This document shows, one piece after another, positions 10,732 through 38,080 of a DNA stretch of 64,000 nt. Below the pieces are notes generated by a model. The model worked only from the letters and a program-made list of their open reading frames with translations, searched no databases and had not been told where the DNA came from. Numbering within the stretch: position 1 is the stretch's first letter; each line of letters opens with the position of its first letter. Source of the DNA: Acidimicrobiia bacterium (GTDB lineage Bacteria; Acidobacteriota; Vicinamibacteria; Vicinamibacterales; CAVVIG01). The DNA lies in NCBI GenBank assembly GCA_016871175.1, contig VFZL01000012.1, positions 1 through 64,000 of the forward strand. Reading direction: 5' to 3'. The translations under genes were made by a program, and so were the position numbers.

Positions 10732-12498
10732 GTGCAGCGTCACCGCCCGCTTGCCGTCGTCGCCACCGTTTGCGTCGTTGTCGCGGCCGCGTTCGTGCAT
10801 TGGGTGCCGCAGCTCGCCGCTCAGGCGCGCAACGCCGGGGCCCAGCCGCCTCGGACCCAAGTCGACTGGGCGCTGCACAACCTCGACCTGGCCGGGACGC
10901 GGTTCTCGCCAATGGACCAGATCAATCGGTCCAGCGTCAAGAGCCTCACCCCCCGCTGGTTGTTCCAGCACGGCGTCATCGACGGCGTCAGCAACCAAAC
11001 GACACCAATCGTCGTGAACGGCACGATGTACGTGACCGACTCACGCGGGAGCGTGTACGCGCTGAACGCGACGGACGGTCATTTGTTGTGGTCCTACGAT
11101 GTGACCAAGATGCTGGGCGGCGGAGCACGCGAGGGCTACATCTTCAGAAATCGCGGCGCCACGTACGGCGACGGCGTGGTGTACACGGCTGCAGGGTCGT
11201 TCATCTTCGCGCTCGACGCCGAGAGTGGCAAGCCGATTCCCACGTTCGGCACCAACGGCCAGTCAAGCGCCATCCTGGACGTTCTCAAGCAACGGTATCC
11301 GGACGTGACCACCGCGATCAGCATGGGCTACTGGTTCACGACCGCGCCCCAGTACCACAAGGGCATGCTGTACATCGGCAGCACGCGCAGCGAGAGTCAC
11401 ATCCCGGGCGGACACGTGCTCGCGATTGACTCAAGAACCGGCAAGGTCGTCTGGCACTTCAACACCGTGCCGCAAGACGAAAAAGATCAAGGGTGGGAGG
11501 TCGCAGGTCCAACGTGGGTGGGCGGCGAGCGCAACGGCGGCGGCATCTGGGAGACGCCGGCTATCGATCCCGAGTTGGGCATGCTGTACGTCGCCGTGGG
11601 CAATCCCTTCGGCGACAGCACGAAGCGCGCCGGGATGAATCTGTTCACAGACTCCATCCTCGCGCTGACGCTCGATACCGGGCGGCTCAAGTGGTACTTC
11701 CAGGAGACGCACCACGACGTGTGGGACTACGACTCCGGGGGGCCGCCGACCCTCTTCGACATGCGTGTGCAGGGGAAGCCCGTGCAAGCGATCGCGCACG
11801 CGAGCAAGAACGGTTTCCTCTACATCCTCGACCGCGTCGACGGCAAACCGGTTCATCCGATCAAAGAGATGCCCGTGCCCACGGACAACCCGCCGAAGGG
11901 CGAGCAACCGTGGCCCACCCAGCCGATTCCGTTCACCGCGAGCGGGAAGCCGATGGAGCCGGTCTGTCCCATCGAACCGCTCGACATTCCCGCGGAAGTG
12001 CTGGCGAAGAACACGATCGTCCCAATCTTCTCGCCCATGCGCGGGAACCAGGTGCACGCTCCTGGCTTCGGTGGTGGCTCGAACTACAGCCCGGTCGCGT
12101 ACAGTCCGCAGACCGGTTATCTCTATGTGAACGCGATCGATCAGCCGTACAACGGCGGCCGCGGGCCGAAGGGATACTTCTCGGCCTACGATCCGACGAC
12201 GGGCGAGTTGAAGTGGCGGCAGATCTTCGAGGGGTTTGGCCAGGCCGGGGCAGTCGTGACGGCCGGCGGCGTCGTCTTCGTGGGAACCGGCAGCAACATC
12301 GCCGGGTACTTCTTCGGGTACGACGCGAGGACCGGTGCGCTGCTCTGGAAGTACAACACCGGCGCCGGCGTGTTCTCCTCGCCGTCCACTTACATGGTGA
12401 ATGGCGAACAGTTCATCGCGGTGGCGTCAGGCGGCGGCGATCGCGGCCGTCGCGGGGGAGACCTCATCCTGAGCTTCGCGCTGCCTCCGCGCCCATGA
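10732..12498 (+). CDS. PQQ-dependent dehydrogenase (quinoprotein), second copy
   Basis: This 588-residue secreted quinoprotein starts at GTG 10732, preceded by AGGAGG. The signal peptide ends near residue 33. Propeller docking motifs include YALNATDGHLLWSYD, AIDSRTGKVVWHFN and AYDPTTGELKWRQ. The metal-site region shows VAVGNPFGD followed by HHDVWDYDSGG, which supplies the catalytic Asp and a second Asp two residues on. No adjacent-cysteine disulfide like that of the first copy is seen. It resembles the soluble alcohol/glucose-dehydrogenase-like quinoproteins; the substrate is unknown. It follows the YVTN lipoprotein on the same strand. Confidence 0.9.
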   Translation: MQRHRPLAVVATVCVVVAAAFVHWVPQLAAQARNAGAQPPRTQVDWALHNLDLAGTRFSPMDQINRSSVKSLTPRWLFQHGVIDGVSNQTTPIVVNGTMYVTDSRGSVYALNATDGHLLWSYDVTKMLGGGAREGYIFRNRGATYGDGVVYTAAGSFIFALDAESGKPIPTFGTNGQSSAILDVLKQRYPDVTTAISMGYWFTTAPQYHKGMLYIGSTRSESHIPGGHVLAIDSRTGKVVWHFNTVPQDEKDQGWEVAGPTWVGGERNGGGIWETPAIDPELGMLYVAVGNPFGDSTKRAGMNLFTDSILALTLDTGRLKWYFQETHHDVWDYDSGGPPTLFDMRVQGKPVQAIAHASKNGFLYILDRVDGKPVHPIKEMPVPTDNPPKGEQPWPTQPIPFTASGKPMEPVCPIEPLDIPAEVLAKNTIVPIFSPMRGNQVHAPGFGGGSNYSPVAYSPQTGYLYVNAIDQPYNGGRGPKGYFSAYDPTTGELKWRQIFEGFGQAGAVVTAGGVVFVGTGSNIAGYFFGYDARTGALLWKYNTGAGVFSSPSTYMVNGEQFIAVASGGGDRGRRGGDLILSFALPPRP

Positions 12499-31676: not shown

Positions 31677-32588
31677 TCATCTACCCCTTCGATCCTGGGG
31701 GGCGGTTCGTGGCGCCTCTGGCACGGAAATGCCGCGCGCCGTCCATCCTTCACGCCGAGCGGACACTTCGATTTTTTCCGGCGGGATGAGTGAGTCGGGG
31801 CGCGCGTACGTCACGCGATACTGTCCGATGATCTCGCGCGCCACGTCCTTCAATCGAGTGGTGAGCGCCGACGGTATCAGCAGCGTGTCGTAGCGCCCGC
31901 CGGAGTCCTTCGTGCCCAGCGAAAGCGTTAGGACGCGATCCTGGGTCATGTTCGCGGGTGTGCCCACGGTCACGACATGGAGCGTGGCGCCCGAGGCTTT
32001 CAGTCGTTCCAGCACCTGTCGATAGCCGCGGTTGCTCAGTTCGGGGCCCTCGCTGGTCACCGCCACCATTACGGACCGTTCGGCGCCTCGCTTCTGCAGG
32101 CCCTGGCCCACTTCCATGATCGCGTCGAGCAGATACGTCCCCGCTTGCGGGATGGCGAACAATCGGTTCACGCTGGCGGTGAGCTGGGCACGATCGGAGG
32201 TGTAATCCGCGAGGATCGTCGGGCGCTCGCCGATACCGATGAGCGCCACCTGGTTGTCGCCGCTCGTGTCCTCCCCCAGCACGACGTCGATGAACGCAGG
32301 GACGGCTTGGCGGTAGTCCCGAATGAAGCTCTGTGCGGCCTGGCTGGTGTCGACGAGGAGGGCAATCTGAATCGGATCGGTCGCGGGCGAGACGCGGAGC
32401 ACCTCGCGTGCGACGTTGTCTTCCCGGATGACGAGGTCGTTCGGTCCGATGTTCTCGGCAGACGCGCCCTTCGCATCAAGGACGCTGACATACATCGTCC
32501 GCTGTCGACCTTGGGCGCGAAGCGCCACGGCGCCCACCAGGCCTGCGCTGACCACAAACACTGTCGCCGCGCGGAGCGGACGCCTCAT
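31677..32588 (-). CDS. Secreted VWFA-related domain protein (2)
   Basis: This 303-residue protein from ATG 32588 has a signal peptide ending AVALRAQG. The VWFA-related domain begins with a beta-sandwich (TMYVSVLDAKGASAENI). The MIDAS is relaxed to DTSQA, and TSEGPELSNRGYRQ stands in place of the usual DG. The C-terminus (YRVTYARPDSLIPPEKIEV) matches the neighbour's. The ATG lies six bases after a strong -10 box, predicting a leaderless mRNA. It heads the VWFA-hem gene series. Confidence 0.86.
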   Translation of the reverse strand: MRRPLRAATVFVVSAGLVGAVALRAQGRQRTMYVSVLDAKGASAENIGPNDLVIREDNVAREVLRVSPATDPIQIALLVDTSQAAQSFIRDYRQAVPAFIDVVLGEDTSGDNQVALIGIGERPTILADYTSDRAQLTASVNRLFAIPQAGTYLLDAIMEVGQGLQKRGAERSVMVAVTSEGPELSNRGYRQVLERLKASGATLHVVTVGTPANMTQDRVLTLSLGTKDSGGRYDTLLIPSALTTRLKDVAREIIGQYRVTYARPDSLIPPEKIEVSARREGWTARGISVPEAPRTAPQDRRGR

Positions 32589-32670: not shown

Positions 32671-33654
32671 ATGGGTTCGTATTCGCTCTGGCTGATTCCG
32701 GTGCTGCCCGCCGCGGCTGCGGTGGTGAGCCTGGCGCTCACCGACGACGGTCACCAGGCCCGCGGGGTGTCACCCGCGGTTGGACGACGGCTGGTCTCGA
32801 CGGCCCTGGTGCTGTCGTTCGCGCTGTCTGTCCCCATCATCGCCGAGGTGTGGCGATCCCCCGACGTGGCCGCCGGGCGCCTGGACGTCCTCGGCGCGTG
32901 GATTCCGAAGTTGCCGGTTGCCACACGGGATGCAACGGGGATTCTCGAAGTGTCATGGGCACTTCGGCTGGATCGGAAGTCTGCCGCCCTTTTGCTCGCC
33001 GCACTGGTCTCTGTGGCATTGGCACTGGTTCGTGCGAGTCGGCCCCCGGCGCGCGAGTCTCGCCTGCTGGGCGTTTCACTGTGGCCATACCTGGGAGCCA
33101 CGCTGGGCTTGCTGGTCCTCGTCTCGTTGGGTCACGGCCTCCTCATGGTCTTTGCAGGGTTGACGGGCATCGTCGCCCTGTCGGCTCTGATGATGAGGGG
33201 CTCGGATGCGGGCGCTGACGTCGGTGCGGAGCTCCCGACGTTGATTCCTGTCGGGCTGGCCGCGTTCGTGCTCGCCATCGGATTCACGTTCGTGACCTTC
33301 GGCTCACTCGACATCCGCGCCGTGGATCGGGCGGCGGCGAACATGCCCTTGGAGATCGCTCGGTGGGGTCCGGTCTCGACGATCACCTTCCTGAGCATCA
33401 TCGGCTTGGTCTTGACCAGTGGGGCGTTCGGGTTGGTCGCTCACTCGGCTCGACGGTTCGCGCGTCTTCACCCGACCGAGCGGGTGTCGATCGCGATCGC
33501 GCTCTCGGCGTGGCTCCCCTGCGTGGCGGCGTTCGGCGTGCTCTGGCAGGTCGCGACGCTGGCCATGCGCGCGCCAACGGCCATTGGTGTGGCCGGCGCA
33601 ATCGGGGGACTTGCGCTCTTCTTCACCCATCGCCTTCGGACGGCCTCGCGATGA
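32671..33654 (+). CDS. NuoL-like, degenerate antiporter-type membrane protein
   Basis: This 327-residue protein has about eight hydrophobic segments. Its N-terminus (LWLIPVLPAAAAVVSLAL) and the middle segment LWPYLGATLGLLVLVSLGHGLLMVFAGLTGI follow the pattern of complex I NuoL. The glutamate in the usual LFxxWExxG segment is absent (FAGLTGI), and the HxWLPDAM-type channel segment is missing, so it cannot pump as NuoL does. It is half the length of NuoL. Its last bases overlap the next gene (ATGA). AGGGG precedes the ATG. A structural or regulatory paralog is likely; the assignment is by pattern only. Confidence 0.7.
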   Translation: MGSYSLWLIPVLPAAAAVVSLALTDDGHQARGVSPAVGRRLVSTALVLSFALSVPIIAEVWRSPDVAAGRLDVLGAWIPKLPVATRDATGILEVSWALRLDRKSAALLLAALVSVALALVRASRPPARESRLLGVSLWPYLGATLGLLVLVSLGHGLLMVFAGLTGIVALSALMMRGSDAGADVGAELPTLIPVGLAAFVLAIGFTFVTFGSLDIRAVDRAAANMPLEIARWGPVSTITFLSIIGLVLTSGAFGLVAHSARRFARLHPTERVSIAIALSAWLPCVAAFGVLWQVATLAMRAPTAIGVAGAIGGLALFFTHRLRTASR

Positions 33655-35270
33655 GCCACCATCTGTCGCTCATTCTGTTGACGCCGCTCGTCGGTGCGCT
33701 GGCGGTCGGCCTCTGGCGCGGGCCCGCCGCACAGCGCGACCGAGTGGCCGAGGCGTTCGCCGTCCTGAGCCTCGTCGTCGCGGCGCCCCTGTGGTTTACC
33801 TACGACCGCGACACGACGTCCTATCAGCTCGTCGAGCGTGTACAGGTGCTCCCGGCCATCGGTCTGGAGTACCACGTCGGCGTCGATGGCGTGAGCGTGT
33901 TGCTCGTCATTCTGACGACGCTGCTGGTGGCTGTGACGGTCCTGTCGTCTCGCTCGTCGATTCTGGTGCACGAGTCACGCTCCGCATCGGTCTTTGCGCT
34001 CGAATTCGGGGTGCTGATCGCCTATCTCGCCCTTGACCTGCTGCTGTTTCTCGCAGGTTGGACGTTGACACTGATCGCCGCCCACCGCGTGTGTGCACCC
34101 GAGCGTGGCGATGGCGCGAGCGGAGCGCCCAAGCGCTGGGGTGTCGGGCTGTCGGTCCTGAGTAGCGTCGCGCTGCTCGTCGTCGTGCTTGGCCTCGGCT
34201 TCGCGCATCGTGAGATCGCCGGGCGGTTCTCGTTCGATATCGTGACGCTTCAACAGCTCGGGTTCGATGCCGGCACCCAGCGGTGGGTGTTTCTCGCGCT
34301 CCTCATGGCGATGGCGGCGTGCCTGGCGCTCGCGCTACCGGGCGTCGTTCTACGCGATCGGACGTCGACCTCGATGGTCGGCCCCGTGTTGGTGACCGGC
34401 GTCGTCGTGAAGATGGGGACGTACAGCCTCATTCGGGTCGGCCTCCCGATGCTTCCCGAGGCCACCCGCGCGTTCTTGCCGTTGACCGTGGGCGCCGGCG
34501 GACTCGCGATCGCGGTCACCGGCGTGCTGGCCCTCCGGCGGAGGGAATGGACCGAGTCGATTGCGTATGCCAGCGCGAGCCACCTGGCGCTCATCGTCGT
34601 CGGTCTGTTCACGTCCAATCCGGTCGGGGTCACGGGAAGCGCCCTCCACCAGTTCAATCACGGTGTTTCAATCGGATCCCTCTGGCTGATCGCCACGGCG
34701 CTGGCGAGCGCCTCGACGTCGGCGATTTCGCGCGGGGTACGGGCCCTGATGTGTGTGGTGGTGCTCGGAGCCGCTGGCTTACCCATGCTCAGCGGCTTCG
34801 TCAGTTCGTTCCTCGTGATGCAAGGCGTCCTGACGGTCAGCGTCGGATGGGCGGCTGTAGCGGTGGGTGGACTTGCACTTGGCGCAGCGGCTCTGCTGCG
34901 GGCTGCACGCGATCTCGGGCATGGGCCGGTGCGGGCGGAGGTGTTCGGGTCCTGGCCTTCGCGTGACGCCGCACCCGCACGTACTGGCTGGCTTGTGCAC
35001 GCGCCGCTCGTGGCGCTCACAGTGTGGGCCGGTGTGTATCCCAGTCCGCTGCTCGCGCGACTGACCACAGGGGTCGATCGCGTGGTGGCCCGCGTAGCGC
35101 CGGAGTACGGTCAGCGTGCCATCGCCGAGTGTGGTGCCGCACCGACGCCCGAGTTGGCGAAGACCAACGCTGCCGCCGCGTTTCTACAGTCGGTCCCTTG
35201 TGGCCCAGACGGCAAGCCGCTCGAGCCGACATCGACGCTCCCCGCGACAACCGGCGAGCCCTCCCGCTGA
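33651..35270 (+). CDS. NuoM-like, divergent proton-translocating-type membrane protein
   Basis: This 539-residue polytopic protein is coupled to the preceding gene by ATGA. It clearly follows NuoM: KMGTYSLIRVGLPMLPEA (with Lys254), HLALIVVGLFTSNPVG, HQFNHGVSIGSLWLI, LPMLSGFVSSF, and a Cys-containing C-tail. However, the glutamate of the family's FFExxLIPM segment is replaced (LLFLAGWTLTLIAAHRV, about 131-147). The glutamate of the GFxGEF segment is replaced as well (Ser386). One conserved lysine remains. It is therefore a NuoM paralog lacking two key charged residues, placed ahead of F0 genes rather than in a nuo operon. Confidence 0.8.
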   Translation: MSHHLSLILLTPLVGALAVGLWRGPAAQRDRVAEAFAVLSLVVAAPLWFTYDRDTTSYQLVERVQVLPAIGLEYHVGVDGVSVLLVILTTLLVAVTVLSSRSSILVHESRSASVFALEFGVLIAYLALDLLLFLAGWTLTLIAAHRVCAPERGDGASGAPKRWGVGLSVLSSVALLVVVLGLGFAHREIAGRFSFDIVTLQQLGFDAGTQRWVFLALLMAMAACLALALPGVVLRDRTSTSMVGPVLVTGVVVKMGTYSLIRVGLPMLPEATRAFLPLTVGAGGLAIAVTGVLALRRREWTESIAYASASHLALIVVGLFTSNPVGVTGSALHQFNHGVSIGSLWLIATALASASTSAISRGVRALMCVVVLGAAGLPMLSGFVSSFLVMQGVLTVSVGWAAVAVGGLALGAAALLRAARDLGHGPVRAEVFGSWPSRDAAPARTGWLVHAPLVALTVWAGVYPSPLLARLTTGVDRVVARVAPEYGQRAIAECGAAPTPELAKTNAAAAFLQSVPCGPDGKPLEPTSTLPATTGEPSR

Positions 35271-35349: not shown

Positions 35350-35367
35350 TGGTGAACTTTTTCACAA
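35350..35367. promoter_or_regulatory. Rex-like operator
   Basis: TGGTGAA-CTTT-TTCACAA is an inverted repeat matching the Rex half-site TTGTGAA/TTCACAA with spacer 4 at 13 of 14 positions. It lies just upstream of the -10 hexamer TATACT at 35375-35380, where a bound repressor would block RNA polymerase. Rex senses NADH/NAD+ and controls respiratory genes in many bacteria. No rex gene is in the window. Confidence 0.5.
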
Positions 35368-35491: not shown

Positions 35492-35770
35492 ATGCCTGAG
35501 GACGATCGCGGTGAGTTCCTCTCACGTTCGTTAAGTCGGTTCCAGGAGAACGTCCGTCGATCGGGACCGGCGGCTGGCGCGGGATACGCCCTGATCGGAG
35601 CCATCCTGCTGCTCGGGGGGGCAGGGTACGCATTGGACGCCTGGCTCAAGACGTCTCCCTGGTTGCTGCTCGGCGGTCTTCTGCTCGGCCTCATCGTCGG
35701 CTTCTACGAGTTGGCGAAGGTGGTCTGGCGGCCAAAGCCTGCCGACCGCCAGCGGTCCCGGCAGCAATGA
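35492..35770 (+). CDS. atpZ: AtpZ/AtpI-type F0-associated membrane protein
   Basis: This 92-residue protein from ATG 35492 has GGGGAA upstream. A short charged N-terminus is followed by two membrane helices: GYALIGAILLLGGAGYALDAW and LLLGGLLLGLIVGFYEL. This is the pattern of AtpZ/AtpI accessory proteins that open ATP synthase operons and are linked to c-ring assembly or Mg2+ handling. It overlaps the next gene (ATGA). Confidence 0.85.
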   Translation: MPEDDRGEFLSRSLSRFQENVRRSGPAAGAGYALIGAILLLGGAGYALDAWLKTSPWLLLGGLLLGLIVGFYELAKVVWRPKPADRQRSRQQ

Positions 35771-36192
35771 CCTCATCGTCGAACGTGCCGACGGTGGTCG
35801 GACCGGCGGTGGCTTTCGCCGCGGGCAGTGTGGCGACGTGGTTGGCGGCGACGGCGATCGCCGCCCCATTTGGCCGTGAGATCTTGTTCGCGATGCTGGC
35901 GCCGCTCATCGCGGCGGTGTCCAGTTGGGTGTGGGTGGCGCGGACGTTTCGCCGCAGTCCCGGCCGCGTCACCAACGTGATGGTGGCCGCATTTGGCGTG
36001 AAGCTGGTGTTCTTCGGCGTCTACGTCGCCGTGATGCTGCGGGGACTTGCGCTGCGGCCCGTGCCCTTCATGCTGGGGTTCACGGCGTACTTTGTCGGCC
36101 TCCATGTCGCCGAAGCGTGGTGGCTGCAGCGGTTGTTCTGGTCAGGCGGGTCCGACGCGCAGAATTCAGAGCTCAACACTCAGAACTCATAA
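35767..36192 (+). CDS. AtpI-like membrane protein
   Basis: This 141-residue protein has four predicted membrane helices (for example GPAVAFAAGSVATWLAATAI and VKLVFFGVYVAVMLRGLAL). It occupies the ATP synthase subunit I position between atpZ and atpB and has the size of that family, though sequence signatures are weak. The last ten residues (QNSELNTQNS) are encoded by the start of a heptamer repeat and look like a slippage-derived tail. Confidence 0.7.
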   Translation: MTSSSNVPTVVGPAVAFAAGSVATWLAATAIAAPFGREILFAMLAPLIAAVSSWVWVARTFRRSPGRVTNVMVAAFGVKLVFFGVYVAVMLRGLALRPVPFMLGFTAYFVGLHVAEAWWLQRLFWSGGSDAQNSELNTQNS

Positions 36193-36219
36193 CTCAAAGC
36201 TCACTTACTCGCCCACTTA
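36164..36219. repeat. Heptamer tandem repeats between atpI-like gene and atpB
   Basis: Consecutive 7-mers are ATTCAGA, GCTCAAC, ACTCAGA, ACTCATA, ACTCAAA and GCTCACT, with consensus RCTCANA, followed by diverged units TACTCGC and CCACTTA. They cover the 3' end of the atpI-like gene and nearly the whole leader of atpB. The composition is unusually AT-rich for this window. Confidence 0.75.
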
Positions 36220-36227
36220 CCCCACGC

Positions 36228-37172
36228 ATGTTCGCCCTACTTATTCAAGAGCACTCCGAACACGCCCCAGAACACGGGGCCGCGGAGAAATTCGACGCCG
36301 GCAAGACCCTCATCGAACACGTCGCGAACAGCCCCATTGACCATCCGCTCATCCACCTGCCGACGATAGCCGGGATCGATTTGTCGGTGACGAAGCACGT
36401 CTTCATGTTGTGGCTGGTCGCCGTTTTCGTGTTCGTGGTCGTCACCGCGACGGTACGCGCGTACCTCAGGCAGGAGCGTCTCGTGCCGTCTGGGCTCATG
36501 AACGTGATCGAGTTCGTGGTCGAGTACATCCGCGACGGGATTGCGCGACCCAACGTGGGGAAGAAGTGGGTGCACGCGTACACACCGCTCTTGCTCACGT
36601 TCTTCGTGTTCATTTTTTGCGCGAACGTCATCGGGTTGATTCCGGTGTTCGACGTGCTCGGCTTGCTGAACCACTACGTGTTCCAGCCAGACGAGCACTC
36701 GTTCCTCGGGAGCGTCGTTCACGGAGGGACGACAGCCACCGCGAACTTCAATGTGACGGCGGCTCTTGCGACCATCACGTTCTTTGCAATCATCATCGCC
36801 GGATCTCGGGCGCACGGGTTCGTGCAGCACTGGATCAACCTGGTGCCGCATGGGTTGCCGAAAGCGATCTACGTCATTCTCATTCCCATCGAGATCATGA
36901 GCATGTTCGTCAAGCCGTTCGCCTTGACAATGCGACTAGCGGCCAACATGACGGGGGGGCACATCGCCATCCTGGCGATCCTCTCGTTCGTGTTCGTGTT
37001 CGCCGAGATGTTCAGCCGCGCGATCGCGGGCATTGGCGTTGGACTCGCGGTATCGGTGCCGATGGCTGTCGGCATCTCAGCACTGGAGATCATCGTCGTG
37101 TTGGTGCAGGCGTATGTCTTCACGTTGCTGACGGCGGTGTTCATCGGCATGGCGATTCACGTACACCATTGA
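36228..37172 (+). CDS. atpB: ATP synthase F0 subunit a
   Basis: This 314-residue protein has the five to six helices of subunit a. The essential arginine is R236 in FALTMRLAANMTGGH, and the last helix carries VLVQAYVFTLLT. An N-terminal 55-residue His/Glu-rich extension (EHSEHAPEHG) precedes the first helix. The start ATG 36228 has no Shine-Dalgarno; its leader is the heptamer repeat. It forms the proton half-channels against the c ring. Confidence 0.95.
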   Translation: MFALLIQEHSEHAPEHGAAEKFDAGKTLIEHVANSPIDHPLIHLPTIAGIDLSVTKHVFMLWLVAVFVFVVVTATVRAYLRQERLVPSGLMNVIEFVVEYIRDGIARPNVGKKWVHAYTPLLLTFFVFIFCANVIGLIPVFDVLGLLNHYVFQPDEHSFLGSVVHGGTTATANFNVTAALATITFFAIIIAGSRAHGFVQHWINLVPHGLPKAIYVILIPIEIMSMFVKPFALTMRLAANMTGGHIAILAILSFVFVFAEMFSRAIAGIGVGLAVSVPMAVGISALEIIVVLVQAYVFTLLTAVFIGMAIHVHH

Positions 37173-37351
37173 GCCGTGTGGGCCTGGTCGGCCTGTTCAT
37201 CCCGGTCGGCGGCAGGGAGGCCGGCAGGGGCTGGGCCGTGAGGCTCGCGCGAGCGTCACGGCGCGCGCGCGAAACACCAGGGGTAGAACCCTGGAGGCAT
37301 CGGACCCGGGGGGTAGGGGCCCCCGGAGTATTCAACGAGGAGTGAGGAAAC
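37173..37351. other. atpB-atpE spacer with GC-rich inverted repeats
   Basis: This 179-bp spacer is long for an atp operon. It contains imperfect GC-rich dyads such as GGTAGAACCCTGG and GGGGGTAGGGGCCCCCGG near its right end, just before the AGGAGTGAGG ribosome-binding region of atpE. A role in raising atpE expression, as in other atp operons, is possible but not shown. Confidence 0.4.
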
Positions 37352-37579
37352 ATGGAAAATGCAGTGGCATACGCCGGCGCTGGTATCGGCCTCGGCCTGA
37401 TCGTGATTGGTGCGGGATTGGGCATCGGCAGGCTGGCGGCCGCGGCCGCGGAAGGTACCGCGCGTCAACCTGGCGCGGCTGACAAGATCACCGGTGCGGT
37501 GAACCTCCCGCTCTTCCTCCTCGAAGGCGTGGCGATCCTCGCCGAGGTGTTCGCGCTGCTGATCGTCCTGCTGAAGTAG
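37352..37579 (+). CDS. atpE: ATP synthase F0 subunit c
   Basis: This 75-residue hairpin has helix 1 GIGLGLIVIGAGLGIGRLA, a polar loop with ARQPGA, and helix 2 carrying the ion-binding glutamate in LPLFLLEGVAILAEV. The glutamine of Na+-type c subunits is absent from helix 1, so H+ specificity is likely. AGGAGTGAGG precedes the ATG. Normal length. Confidence 0.95.
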   Translation: MENAVAYAGAGIGLGLIVIGAGLGIGRLAAAAAEGTARQPGAADKITGAVNLPLFLLEGVAILAEVFALLIVLLK

Positions 37580-37588
37580 GAGCGGTCC

Positions 37589-38080
37589 ATGAACAATCCC
37601 TTGGTCCAGCCCGATCCAGGGCTTTTCATCTGGACCATCATCGTCTTCCTCGTCCTCCTCGCGCTGCTCGCGAAGTACGCGTGGGGGCCGTTGCTGAAGG
37701 CGCTGGAGGGTCGTCAGGAAGCGATCCGCAAAGCGCTCGACGATGCGCAGCAGGCCAAAACGGAGTTGGAGCGGCTCCAACACGAGTCGGCGCAGATCAT
37801 CGCCAAGGCGCGGCAGGAGGCCGACGCGATCATCACGCGCAGTCGAGCCGATGGCGAGGCGCTTCGCGAGGAGCTTCGCACCAAGGCCCGCGCCGAAGCG
37901 GACGGCATCGTCAAGAACGCCGAGCGTCAGATCCAGGCCGAGACGGCGCGAGCCGTCCAGCAGATCCGCCACGAGGCGGCGGATCTGTCGGTCGCGATCG
38001 CGTCCAAGATCATCCAGCGCAATCTATCCAAGGAAGACAATCAGCGTCTCATCGACGAGACGCTGCGCCAGCTGCACTAG
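37589..38080 (+). CDS. atpF: ATP synthase F0 subunit b
   Basis: This 163-residue protein has an N-terminal membrane helix (FIWTIIVFLVLLALLAKYAWGPLL) and a long charged coiled-coil stalk with Ala/Glu/Arg heptads. It starts nine bases after atpE with AGGAGCGG upstream. It should be followed by atpH and the F1 genes, but the transcript region ends here: the next 400 bp are non-coding and then a minus-strand gene begins. Confidence 0.95.
   Translation: MNNPLVQPDPGLFIWTIIVFLVLLALLAKYAWGPLLKALEGRQEAIRKALDDAQQAKTELERLQHESAQIIAKARQEADAIITRSRADGEALREELRTKARAEADGIVKNAERQIQAETARAVQQIRHEAADLSVAIASKIIQRNLSKEDNQRLIDETLRQLH

Follow-up and report, generated by a model that had tools for sequence, protein, structure and literature searches.

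Two overlapping genes of the window (the whole 64,000-nucleotide stretch analysed) encode the N-terminal half of a NuoL-like protein and a full-length NuoM-like protein, here called NuoL' and NuoM'. Judged by comparison with related genomes, the pair is clearly what survives of a nuoACDHJKLMN operon that comprised nine genes. We put at about 0.55 the probability that this remnant does not pump but serves as a scaffold or docking element at the periplasmic face of the membrane. The usual view of complex I subunits is that they persist because they pump or else disappear together with the enzyme. In this case the pump residues and the conservation of the cytoplasmic half are gone while selection appears to act on the periplasmic half, in what seem to be two lineages. 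If the function were confirmed, it would mean that the periplasmic docking architecture is useful in itself and would offer a natural case in which docking is separated from pumping.

The NuoL' and NuoM' genes

The nuoL' gene (32671..33654, plus strand) specifies 327 amino acids spanning TM1-9, and nuoM' (33651..35270, plus strand) a protein of 539 amino acids with 14 TM segments; the stop of the former and the start of the latter overlap in an ATGA (33651..33654, plus strand). The initial annotation had described a half-length NuoL-like protein, the ATGA coupling and the location of the pair ahead of atpZ-I-B-E-F without nuo genes alongside. Each of these points is borne out, the last by the open reading frames, Pfam and the content of the locus. 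The second half of nuoL has been deleted, and the C-terminal half of the protein and its lateral helix are missing accordingly.

The NuoM assignment is strong. The 539-residue protein matches TIGR01972 with E=2.7e-75 (253.9 bits, just below the 263.8 cut-off) and its best Foldseek matches are NuoM/ND4 (TM-score about 0.77-0.87), so that both profile and fold place it with NuoM. Since NuoL' gives a weak match to TIGR01974 (E=0.005), its identity leans on synteny, on the fold and on an alignment with the same-genus NuoL orthologue (residues 5-312, 32% identity, E=7e-24); on these grounds the assignment is firm. The predicted models have a mean pLDDT of 77.8 (NuoL') and 74.6 (NuoM'), and the NuoL and NuoM chains of complex I match them best.

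At E. coli E144, K234 and E407, of which the E144/K234 pair and E407 are discussed as proton-path residues (PMC9271201), NuoM' has T, C and S. It keeps K254 (E. coli K265) as well as H322, H348, D84, D135 and R273 (E. coli numbering). Thus, among the TM5 Glu, TM7 Lys, TM8 Lys and TM12 Glu, the TM8 Lys alone remains. The retention of Lys254 and the loss of two Glu had been noted previously, but the loss of the TM7 Lys was overlooked. In NuoL' the residues at E. coli NuoL E144, K229 and H254 are T, T and S, which means loss of the TM5 Glu, TM7 Lys and TM8 His (T165 and T249 of NuoL' itself stand for the first two). D178 (E. coli position) is also lost; D82 is kept, and Asp101 is retained. The C-terminal tail of NuoM' is conserved, with the pattern C..PTPE..FLxxVPCGPDGKPL. 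In the NuoM of intact operons at the same locus (L068 and its relatives) the C-terminal tail is variable and contains in many cases two Cys (C..PTPE..FLxxxPCxxxGxPL).

The pair thus has in common with NuoM and NuoL of complex I (TIGR01972/TIGR01974, PF00361) the fold, the topology, the TM8 Lys, the TM11 His and the Asp linked to the beta-hairpin (betaH) element, and is orthologous to the nuoL and nuoM of relatives. It differs in the absence of the TM5 Glu, TM7 Lys and TM12 Glu, in the end of NuoL' after TM9, in having no other subunit genes alongside and in a reversed polarity of conservation (see below). MrpA and MrpD share with the pair the antiporter superfamily and the betaH element. However, no other mrp genes lie beside it, and profile and fold are closer to NuoM than to MrpA/MrpD. 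For the DabAB inorganic carbon transporter, in which DabB is encoded with its partner DabA, the comparison covered the neighbours of the pair, which are VWA-domain genes and atp genes. Nothing in the literature was found to deal directly with orphan NuoM-like proteins or with complex I in Vicinamibacteria.

Origin of the locus

In relatives from the same genus, the same family and the same order, the slot occupied by the pair holds nuoA-C-D-H-J-K-L-M-N, the gene order being hemA-ccsA-vwa1-vwa2, then the nuo operon, then atpZ-I-B-E-F. A divergent gene for a VWA-domain protein (31677..32588, minus strand) corresponds to the opposite boundary of the slot in these relatives. One family of the order instead has the operon adjoining atpF in the opposite orientation. 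Among 162 genomes of the order, 69 (counting the window) encode a NuoM of the slot type. The relatives' operon is intact, with every pump residue present, and lies in the same slot between the same flanks; it is the ancestor-type locus. Its genes cover the membrane and quinone-site portion of an additional complex I; the partners nuoB and nuoI are encoded elsewhere, in several genomes beside a ferredoxin gene.

Just half of nuoL plus nuoM is left in the window, nuoACDHJK and nuoN being gone, so that NuoM' is no longer encoded with the other membrane subunits. The slot is empty in another genome, G007. Contigs C13 and C17 of the window genome each carry a further nuo operon. These two, together with the intact operon of relatives, identify the pair as a remnant. 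Family searches of the window genome gave no sign that the lost nuoN or nuoH had moved to another place. Its seven PF00361 genes are all accounted for (L, M and N on C13; L, M and N on C17; nuoM'), hence nuoN has not been relocated, and its two NuoB and two NuoH are all encoded on C13 and C17. The same-genus relative has one additional stand-alone NuoB. In the NuoM of the C17 operon (L104 8356-10077, G000) Leu replaces the TM7 Lys (E. coli K234), the other key residues being kept. In the C13 operon (L103 2568-5553, G000) no nuoG or nuoI is seen between nuoF and nuoH.

A split complex I is found in Vicinamibacterales, with nuoACDHJKLMN in one place and ferredoxin-nuoB-nuoI in another (L072 3015-13046, L112 8317-9713, L114 7937-9200). 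Because G048, G054 and G044 have a single NuoH and a single NuoB, these genomes seem to have no complex I other than the split set.

The initial annotation had called for a survey of the pair next to atp genes. The pair itself is absent from other genomes, as judged from the 162 genomes of the order and from a scan of the species collection with NuoM' peptides. A lone nuoM' was found only in G008, a member of another genus of the same family, where it is all that is left in the slot and lies directly behind a VWA-domain gene. The pair is therefore known from one genome and the lone NuoM' from one other, both fragmented draft assemblies. The G008 protein has the same Glu/Lys/Glu losses as the window NuoM' and keeps K265, H348, D84, D135 and R273. 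The two co-retain 78 family-invariant residues against 59.3+-3.8 expected (residue-stratified permutation), an excess that may be due in part to stretches poorly aligned in both.

Whether the two NuoM' descend from a single degenerate ancestor was considered, since the maximum-likelihood protein tree joins them. This grouping is probably due to long-branch attraction. The data are compatible with a constrained tree that groups the window NuoM' with G001 (AU 0.20), and shared derived residues are not in excess (28 against 23.5 expected, P=0.13). The protein trees being undecided, synteny and flanking genes, which put the window closest to G001, a bearer of the intact operon, favour two parallel reductions over the shared ancestor.

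The location of the pair directly upstream of F0 genes on the same strand had led to the suggestion of a membrane module connected with ATP synthase. The genes concerned are atpZ (35492..35770, plus strand; PF09527) and atpI, atpB, atpE and atpF (35767..38080, plus strand), of which atpB, atpE and atpF are recognized by Pfam and atpI, an open reading frame with no Pfam match, is named by position. No F1 genes adjoin these F0 genes (35492-38080); a VWA-domain gene follows on the opposite strand. A palindrome resembling a Rex operator, TGAACTTTTTCACA followed by GCTATACT (35353..35366, plus strand), precedes atpZ and is conserved upstream of atpZ in relatives. The motif, TTGGTGAACTTTTTCACAAGGTACGCTATACT, is present in 14 relatives' loci, with and without nuo genes, and its 14-base core has a chance expectation of 0.02 per window. 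It resembles the Rex operator TTGTGAANNNNTTCACAA, which in Streptomyces controls atp and nuo operons (PMC5355995). The window genome encodes one Rex-type N-domain protein, on C33. A second Rex-operator-like site lies at 11636-11649; both sites of the window read TGAANNNNTTCACA.

The atp genes thus probably have a promoter region of their own, conserved with or without nuo genes, and by synteny the adjacency of nuo and atp genes is inherited from the intact operon. Moreover, in 17 of 20 further atpB loci no nuo gene is recognized next to the atp genes; in two a nuoN-like gene lies past atpF and, in the remaining one, the operon is cut by a contig end. The conserved face of the proteins (see below) is also periplasmic, away from F1. 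A tie to ATP synthase is thus highly improbable and, on the strength of the synteny and the separate promoter region, we reject it.

Pattern of conservation

Deletion of the remainder of the operon, with two other nuo operons making the genes redundant, might mean that the two open reading frames are relaxed leftovers that do not yet carry stops. Very long branches in the protein trees (4.60 against 0.21 for NuoM'; 7.53 against 0.03 for NuoL') and a whole-gene pairwise dN/dS of 0.5-0.8 would also agree with such ordinary decay. The pairwise dN is 0.53 for nuoM' and 0.73 for nuoL', and 0.06-0.27 for the flanking genes. Neutral drift, however, predicts neither the absence of stops nor the exclusively in-frame indels relative to the sister sequence at such divergence. 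When neutral evolution to the observed distance was simulated, with the sister sequence as a stand-in for the ancestor, the mean number of stops was about 4.5-8 in nuoM' and 2-4 in nuoL', GRAVY fell at 0.0-0.25 and 1-2 TM segments were left. The observed values are 0 stops, a GRAVY of 0.88-0.89 and 12 (NuoM') and 9 (NuoL') TM segments, so the hydrophobic pattern has been retained as well. For nuoL' alone the lack of stops is weak evidence (P 0.008-0.08).

Drift does not predict the distribution of the conserved residues either. These were assigned to depth classes from the AlphaFold helices, with the N terminus placed outside in accordance with the NuoM literature; the distribution of Lys/Arg agrees with this topology. 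The identity of NuoM' to its sister is 0.59 in outer loops, 0.53 in the outer TM third and 0.47 in the middle, then 0.18 in the inner TM third and 0.22 in inner loops. The corresponding values among intact relatives are 0.59, 0.75, 0.83, 0.83 and 0.71. Taken together, outer and inner identities are 0.57 vs 0.19 in NuoM' (P=2e-14), 0.41 vs 0.21 in NuoL' (P=0.0015) and 0.44 vs 0.22 in the G008 NuoM' (P=1e-5). In control pairs of intact proteins the polarity is reversed, inner identity being the higher. The C-terminal tail of NuoM', with 70% identity to the sister (0.65 in the depth classes), is likewise more conserved than among family members (about 46%; 0.46 in the intact relatives).

By NG86, which is near saturation at this distance and ignores codon bias, NuoM' has a dN of 0.34 outside and 1.14 inside, with a dS of 1.18 and 0.86, respectively. 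The outer dN well under dS, the inner dN over dS and the polarity together indicate purifying selection on the outer half; the cytoplasmic half appears to evolve at the neutral rate or faster. Adaptive change on the cytoplasmic side is possible, and given the roughness of NG86 at such distance we go no further than that.

The pair therefore displays neither the disrupted frame nor the neutral substitution pattern of a pseudogene, and the simulation and the polarity render plain decay unlikely. The initial annotation had regarded a complete standard complex I elsewhere in the genome, combined with scatter or absence of the two genes in relatives, as a pointer to decay. Other nuo operons do exist and relatives do have the operon intact, but the decay expected from this is disfavoured by the sequences themselves.

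Proposed periplasmic role

In complex I and Mrp, antiporter-like subunits are joined on the cytoplasmic side by the HL helix and on the periplasmic side by betaH, and betaH-linked Asp residues are critical in Mrp (PMC7419157). Both NuoM' proteins keep Asp at betaH-matching places (D84 and D135, the correspondence being by position) and the TM8 Arg. This retention, along with the loss of E144/K234 and E407, led to the proposal of a non-pumping, periplasmically docked piece. NuoL' and NuoM' would have kept the fold and the membrane insertion of NuoL and NuoM, and would dock side by side via the periplasmic betaH element, the residues of which are kept, but would no longer move protons along the normal path. 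The scaffold might consist of the NuoL'-NuoM' pair or be joined to one of the complexes I that the genome still encodes. Docking via betaH is inferred from the retained residues. The proposal agrees with the non-pumping membrane module envisaged in the initial annotation, as the pumping residues are lost and the proteins seem to be maintained.

Conversely, the equivalents of K265 and H348 are present in both remnants, and the outer and middle membrane layers are conserved. The proteins might then form a half-channel, a periplasmic ion path with the TM8 Lys and TM11 His that conducts or buffers ions or acts as a slow leak. This is distinctly unlikely, because E144, K234 and E407 are gone in both remnants, the cytoplasmic path is not conserved and NuoM in complex I is thought to lack a clear link of its own to the periplasm (PMC7419157).

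The periplasmic scaffold might also be a more general phenomenon, antiporter-type subunits that had lost their enzyme and their pump residues having been kept more than once as non-pumping betaH scaffolds with a freely or adaptively evolving cytoplasmic half; we hold this tentatively, at somewhat less than an even chance. A comparable case is the partial NDH-1 of Salinispora (PMC3314556), where complex I membrane subunits likewise occur without the electron-input part. That operon, however, holds seven membrane genes and has been proposed to pump ions (PMC3314556), whereas the present locus retains one and a half subunits from which the pump residues are gone.
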